A stretch of DNA of 64,000 bases, taken from Chloroflexota bacterium. GTDB lineage: Bacteria > Chloroflexota > Dehalococcoidia > Tepidiformales > Tepidiformaceae. Made by a program: the position numbers and the translations under genes. The stretch spans positions 1-64,000 of the forward strand of contig JAPPBY010000033.1 of assembly GCA_026702615.1 (NCBI GenBank), read 5' to 3'. The stretch's first letter is position 1, and the number at the start of each line of letters is the position of its first letter. The notes beneath the pieces are model-generated. The model was not told where the DNA came from, did not search any database, and saw only the letters and a program-made list of their open reading frames with translations. Shown one piece after another: positions 40,176 through 41,225 of the stretch.

Positions 40176-41225
40176 GTGACTGCACACGAGATCCGGTTGA
40201 CGGACCTGACCGGCTGCGGCGGCTGAGCGTCCAAGGCGGGCCCTGAGGCCCTGGCGCAGGTTCTGTCGCCACTGACCGAGGCGTTCGACCCCGAAGCGCA
40301 TCCCGACCTCCTCGCCGGGCTCGGGACGCCTGATGATGCCGCCGTCTACCGCATCAACGCGCGCACTGCCGTCATAGCCACCCTCGACTTCTTCGCCCCG
40401 CTCGTTGACGACCCCTGGCAGTACGGCGCCATCGCCGCCGCCAACGCCATGTCCGACGTTTATGCGATGGGCGGCGAGGTCGTGCTCGCTTTGAACGTCG
40501 CCGCCTTCCCCGAGGACCTGCCCGCCGATGTCGCCGCGGAGATCATCCGCGGCGGCGCCGACAAGGTCGCCGAGGCCGGCGGCGTTGTCGCCGGTGGCCA
40601 CACCGTCTGGGACGAGGAGCCCAAGTACGGCCTCAGCGTGCTGGGCCTGGTGAACCCCTCCCGCCTGCTGCGCAAGGCCGCCCTCCGCCCCGGCGACCGC
40701 CTCTACCTCACGAAGCCACTCGGCACCGGCGTCATTCTCTCCTCGACCGGCAGCGGCCGGGGCGACTCCGCCTGGCTTGACAGCGCTATCGACTCGATGC
40801 TGCGGCTCAACCGCCACGCCGCCCACCTCGCCACCGGCCACCGCCTGCGCGCCGCCACCGACGTCACCGGGTTCGGCCTCCTCGGGCACCTCTGGGAGAT
40901 GGTCGAACGCTCGGGTGTCGCGGCCACCATCGACGCCTCCGCCCTCCCCCTCCTCCCCGGCGCGCGCGAATCTGCCGCCATGGACGCTCACACCGGCGGC
41001 GAAGGCCGCAACCGCGACTGGGTCGGCGACAACCTCACCGTCGCCCCCGGCGTCGACTCCGAACTCGCCGCCATCGCCTTCGACCCCCAGACCTCCGGCG
41101 GCCTCCTCCTCGCCTGCCCCGCCCGCAAGGCGAAGGCCCTCGAAGCCGCCTTCGCCGCCGACGCCGAACCCCTCCACCCCATCGGCCGCGTCACCCGCGG
41201 CGATCCCCACATCCAGCTGCGCTAG
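40176..41225 (+). CDS. selD: Selenophosphate synthetase with selenocysteine at the catalytic position (in-frame TGA at 40224-40226)
   Basis: Reading from GTG 40176 through one in-frame TGA gives 349 residues with the complete SelD N-terminus: IRLTDLTGCGG, then TGA at codon 17, then ASKAGPEALAQVL. Numbering matches E. coli SelD exactly: residue 17 is the catalytic Cys there and Lys20 is conserved here. The ATP-binding part follows (LDFFAPLVDDPW, NAMSDVYAMGG, GHTVWDEEPKYGLSVLG). A start at ATG 40449 would lose all of this. Sec-containing SelD is known in several bacteria, so the TGA is best read as selenocysteine. TACGAT 6 nt before the GTG suggests a leaderless transcript. selA, selB and selC are not in the window. 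Confidence 0.9.
40227..40257 (+). promoter_or_regulatory. Possible bacterial SECIS hairpin after the selD TGA
   Basis: Directly after the TGA a stem forms: GGGCC (40238-40242) with GGCCC (40247-40251) around CTGA, extended by CCA/TGG (40231-40233 with 40252-40254) across a 4-nt bulge. The loop begins 16 nt after the TGA, within the spacing seen for bacterial SECIS elements. The loop G is at position three, not one or two as the model prefers, so the match is partial. Confidence 0.5.

Follow-up and report, generated by a model that had tools for sequence, protein, structure and literature searches.

The DNA analysed here, hereafter the window, is a stretch of 64,000 nucleotides from a Chloroflexota genome (contig JAPPBY010000033.1, positions 1 to 64,000), and it carries on its forward strand a full-length selD gene (40176–41225) for selenide, water dikinase. 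The gene has an in-frame TGA at codon 17 (40224–40226), which is the catalytic position, and this observation is confirmed. We assign a probability of about 0.97 to the interpretation that the product is the selenocysteine (Sec) form of selenophosphate synthetase, that UGA 17 would be decoded by tRNA-Sec and SelB via a downstream hairpin, and that the enzyme would supply SelA and so all Sec synthesis. The gene, the codon position, the machinery, the conserved hairpin and the other UGA genes are documented at the level of sequence, as described below.

The selD reading frame

The selD frame runs from a GTG at 40176 to a TAG at 41225 and encodes 349 residues with Sec at position 17. The TGA at 40224–40226 is the single internal stop. 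The read-through product matched TIGR00476 over its full length with 353.7 bits (cut-off 125) and PRK00943 with 314.9 bits, and it contains the AIRS and AIRS_C domains. The product was aligned with PDB 3u0o, a solved bacterial SelD, with an E value of 6e-64. According to this alignment, U17 is located on C17, and Lys20, the conserved active-site lysine of the UxxK motif (AAG, 40233–40235), is located on K20. The lysine was present in all 67 distinct TGA SelD sequences tabulated. These results bear out two claims of an earlier sequence-only reading, namely that the TGA occupies the catalytic position and that Lys20 is conserved.

The next start codon on the 3′ side of the TGA is the ATG at 40449, 273 bp downstream of the GTG. 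Therefore, a gene caller that stops at the TGA would drop residues 1–91 and report an ORF of 258 aa (40449–41225), in line with the late start by 273 bp that the sequence-only reading had predicted for automated annotation. An automatic caller of this kind would truncate selD in these Chloroflexota genomes. It is very improbable that the cell itself translates this shorter ORF and leaves the upstream part untranslated. The ORF from ATG 40449 is open by itself, but the truncated SelD would have neither the catalytic residue nor Lys20. Moreover, all close relatives retain the protein sequence encoded upstream of ATG 40449, and the start codon is retained as well. The start position is common to the relatives, with ATG instead of GTG in two loci (L026 and L027).

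The hairpin downstream of the TGA

A hairpin is located at RNA positions 40252–40271 (UGGCG-CAG-GUU-CUG-U-CGCCA, −9.8 kcal/mol). It is composed of a 5-bp lower stem, a bulged U, a 3-bp upper stem and a GUU loop. In the published bSECIS model, the apical loop has 3–9 nt, the upper stem has 4–16 bp and the distance from the UGA to the loop is 16–37 nt; one of the first two loop nucleotides is a G, with G or U usually next to it on the 3′ side, and the MFE is −7.5 kcal/mol or lower (PMC13188914). The hairpin of selD falls within all of these constraints: its loop is GUU, its stem has 8 bp interrupted by a single bulge, and its energy is as given above. Its loop starts 33 nt after the UGA, in agreement with the earlier statement that a hairpin follows at a suitable distance. 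A second small hairpin (GGGCC-CUGA-GGCCC) is predicted from the fold only at 40238–40251, between the UGA and the first hairpin.

An Rfam scan of the selD region gave no match above the threshold. Taken singly, the sequence does not differ notably in folding energy from its shuffled versions (z from +0.39 to −1.27), and thus the argument for the hairpin rests on comparative evidence. In the relatives, the stem variants GGCGCAG-GUN-CUGCGCC, GGCUCAC-GUG-CUGAGCC, UAGCGCAG-GUC-CUGCGCUA and UGAUGCAC-GUG-CUGCAUCA were observed. Both sides of the stem vary jointly, so that the changes are compensatory. An alignment was made of 41 distinct sequences with no bulge, which were hand-picked with eight badly fitting ones included; a more distant SelD clade, whose sequence downstream differs, is largely left out of this set. 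In this alignment 84% of the cells are paired, compared with 71.2 ± 1.3% in shuffles. The double-sided changes number 27 against 6.7 in shuffles, and the covariation is 0.320 against 0.113. When the partner was slid by one base, the pairing fell to about 31%.

The stem was also evaluated by synonymous recoding, in which the protein was held fixed, the codons were redrawn and the seven stem pairs were counted. The TGA selD genes keep 6.27 of the 7 pairs, whereas 4.11 ± 0.09 are expected. The seven Cys selD genes keep 4.0 pairs, and 4.15 are expected. As the compared sequences are related, the z value of 23 is not to be read as a probability, but the contrast between the TGA and Cys forms is still clear. 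The stem is kept with the TGA only and lost in the Cys forms, and this comparison shows cleanly that the hairpin is of importance. By its features, the hairpin at 40252–40271 is classed as a bacterial SECIS element, to which SelB would be expected to bind.

Sec machinery, other likely selenoproteins and distribution

The genes for the Sec machinery were found in the same genome. SelA is encoded on contig C5 (420 bits), and SelB on contig C35 (299–320 bits) with the SelB winged helices PF09106 and PF09107. In known SelB, these domains bind the SECIS RNA. The tRNA-Sec gene selC is present on contig C36 (71 bits, gathering cut-off 47), and ARAGORN assigned the anticodon TCA. Thus selA, selB, selC and selD are located on four different contigs of one genome. 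In the tRNA-Sec (L003:1501–1598), the eighth acceptor position is apparently a G–G mismatch, as judged by eye, which is a point against the Sec-SelD interpretation.

Other selenoprotein genes were sought by targeted searches that read through stops, and the DNA was then read; the resulting list is incomplete since the searches were targeted only. Eleven further genes were read in the source genome (G000; loci L115–L118 and L135–L140), each with a single in-frame TGA that takes the place of a redox-active Cys. They encode a peroxiredoxin-like protein (C26:112557–112928), a second one with the motif WUPFC (C33:14246–14683), two tandem thioredoxin-like proteins with ASWUGC (C27:112045–113495), a SelW-like protein with CVPU that exceeds the TIGR02174 cut-off (C3:54832–55044), five AhpD-like proteins with CxxU (C3:38271, C2:43451, C38:4527, C31:11007 and C34:16623) and a DsbA-like protein with UPWC (C23:35874). 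One of the thioredoxin-like pair is close to the WAxxUGC family of NCBIfam (268 bits, cut-off 300). Several AhpD-like candidates and the DsbA-like candidate score well under the existing NCBIfam selenoprotein models. The contig that carries the window also has a thioredoxin-like match with one in-frame TGA (G000:C8:202224–202457, minus strand). The genome is likely to encode about a dozen selenoproteins besides SelD, judging from these genes. The sequence-only reading had regarded the organism as a likely selenoprotein maker and had pointed to selA, selB, selC and other Sec genes as the place to look; all three machinery genes and the eleven UGA genes agree with that view.

The same genes bear on the possibility that SelD is the sole selenoprotein and that the Sec system serves only its own enzyme or selenouridine. 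Some bacteria that contain YbbB have been described as such a case (PMC1794560). Here the eleven further UGA genes belong to known redox families, and SelD as the only selenoprotein was rejected on this basis. The selenouridine synthase SelU/YbbB, for which the E. coli control was positive, gave no match in the source genome or in six relatives, and by this marker the selenouridine trait was not found in the source genome. Such an arrangement is therefore hardly to be expected. It is likewise highly unlikely that a wholesale code change or a suppressor causes Trp, Gly, Cys or another ordinary amino acid to be inserted at the UGA. No support for such reading was found in this analysis. UGA ends 15 of the 35 coding-like ORFs of the window and is an ordinary stop elsewhere, the in-frame UGAs that were examined lie at redox-active positions only, and the genome has selA, selB and selC.

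The search of the source genome gave no formate dehydrogenase that exceeded the cut-off and none interrupted by a stop. A selenoproteome without FdhA is a less ordinary feature of this genome, as is the CxxU active site described below. The redox families found here also account for a large share of the selenoproteins reported from marine samples in the Global Ocean Sampling data (PMC2398784). For Chloroflexi, the number of known selenoproteins in 2006 was three. Within an incomplete coverage of the literature, no paper on the selenoproteome of this Chloroflexota group was found. By the present results, a group of Chloroflexota known from assembly genomes has a full Sec-decoding system, together with some dozen likely selenoproteins.

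The TGA was then compared among relatives. In 14 related loci from public genomes, with identities from 97% to 45%, TGA is present at codon 17 in all. In a sample of 197 genomes of the same class as the source genome, SelD with an in-frame TGA was found in 124, and SelD with Cys in 7 others. The SelD N-termini were read at the DNA level for 144 loci (L019–L102 and L155–L214; a few genomes occur in both collections), and 137 have TGA and 7 have TGC. The sequence-only reading had named TGC or TGT in close relatives, with the TGA as a sequencing error, as the outcome that would speak against it; the TGA is kept, with only a few TGC, and its Sec-SelD interpretation is supported. A sequencing or assembly error, or a pseudogene, is the least probable of the explanations. 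The assembly of the source genome is fragmented (38 contigs), but relatives that were assembled independently and that range from 97% to 38% identity have the same TGA, with the frame intact on both sides.

Two further observations were made on these loci. One genome (G093) holds two SelD copies (G093:C71:1722–2738 and G093:C21:301–1314), of which one contains an in-frame TGA and the other has no stop at all. A SelD with 93% identity to the Chloroflexota gene is present in an assembly under the label Bryobacterales (L029, JAJDWM010000018.1), and this is probably a misbinned contig.

SelA was found in 110 of the 124 TGA-SelD genomes and in 11 of the 66 genomes without a full SelD (Fisher p = 2e-23, uncorrected for kinship). 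The 14 TGA-SelD genomes in which SelA was not found speak against the interpretation; many of them are incomplete assemblies, but one (G018) is 95% complete. In the family of the source genome (f1), Sec-SelD and SelA are both present in seven genomes (G000, G092, G162, G195, G077, G107 and G173) and both absent in seven (G033, G060, G118, G129, G141, G152 and G184). This split suggests that the Sec trait as a whole was lost or gained inside a single family, and it is suited to the study of such events.

The active site and comparison with known systems

In the proposed mechanism, the UGA at codon 17 would be decoded by tRNA-Sec carried by SelB, and SelB would recognize the hairpin just 3′ of the UGA on the same mRNA. 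Sec17 and Lys20, possibly with Cys14, would form a flexible N-terminal loop that handles selenium. The enzyme would convert selenide and ATP to selenophosphate, and SelA would use the selenophosphate to produce the Sec-tRNA required for SelD and for about a dozen further proteins. We infer Sec insertion, SelB binding of the hairpin and catalysis from the features described above, and the self-dependence of SelD, which had been proposed from the sequence, would follow as a logical consequence. Such a cycle could be set going by a low level of background readthrough or by insertion of Cys.

Cys14 (TGC, 40215–40217) forms a CxxU motif with Sec17. Among the 137 Sec forms, CxxU is present in 86, UxC (Cys two residues after Sec) in 17 and neither in 34; the two motifs occur together in none. 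The seven Cys forms all have CxxC. In the Global Ocean Sampling data, CxxU is present in about 5.6% of single-domain Sec-SelDs (PMC2398784); this paper was the chief literature source obtained for CxxU in SelD. The frequency of CxxU in the class may reflect descent rather than function. A mechanistically distinct CxxU SelD is a tentative and rather unlikely proposal, in which a reversible Cys14–Sec17 selenenylsulfide would accept selenium from a donor of the perselenide or persulfide type and would redox-gate the enzyme, and FdhA-independent thiol-redox selenoproteins would keep the Sec trait in this lineage. The enrichment of CxxU raises a testable question of how SelD receives selenium.

Sec-SelD has long been known; among bacterial selenoproteins, it ranks as one of the two with the widest distribution (PMC1794560; PMC13188914). 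The protein described here resembles the Sec-containing SelD with UxxK (PMC13188914) in the Sec at the Cys17 position, Lys20, the AIRS domains, the in-frame bSECIS and the presence of selA, selB and selC in the genome. It differs from the typical Sec-SelD in Cys14, three residues before Sec. The NifS-SelD fusion of Geobacter sp. FRC-32 (PMC2398784) also has CxxU, whereas the protein here is a single-domain SelD. In the Ndh-SelD fusions with CxxC (PMC2398784), the vicinal Cys has the same spacing from the catalytic residue. These fusions have Cys in place of Sec and an NADH dehydrogenase domain, neither of which is found in the SelD here.

The bSECIS of E. coli fdhF has a short stem, an apical loop containing GGU and a bulged U on the 5′ side. 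The short stem, the GGU at the apex and the bulged U are shared with the selD hairpin, whereas the bulged U of the latter is on the 3′ side, and in fdhF the distance from the UGA to the loop is shorter by about 14 nt. Beyond the sequence-only reading, the comparison adds that Sec-SelD is common and long known, that this genome has about a dozen likely selenoproteins, of which it is one, and that its active site is of the CxxU type. The Sec-SelD here is real and well supported, but this form of the enzyme is common and already known; it has a less common active-site motif and belongs to a lineage with an under-described selenoproteome.
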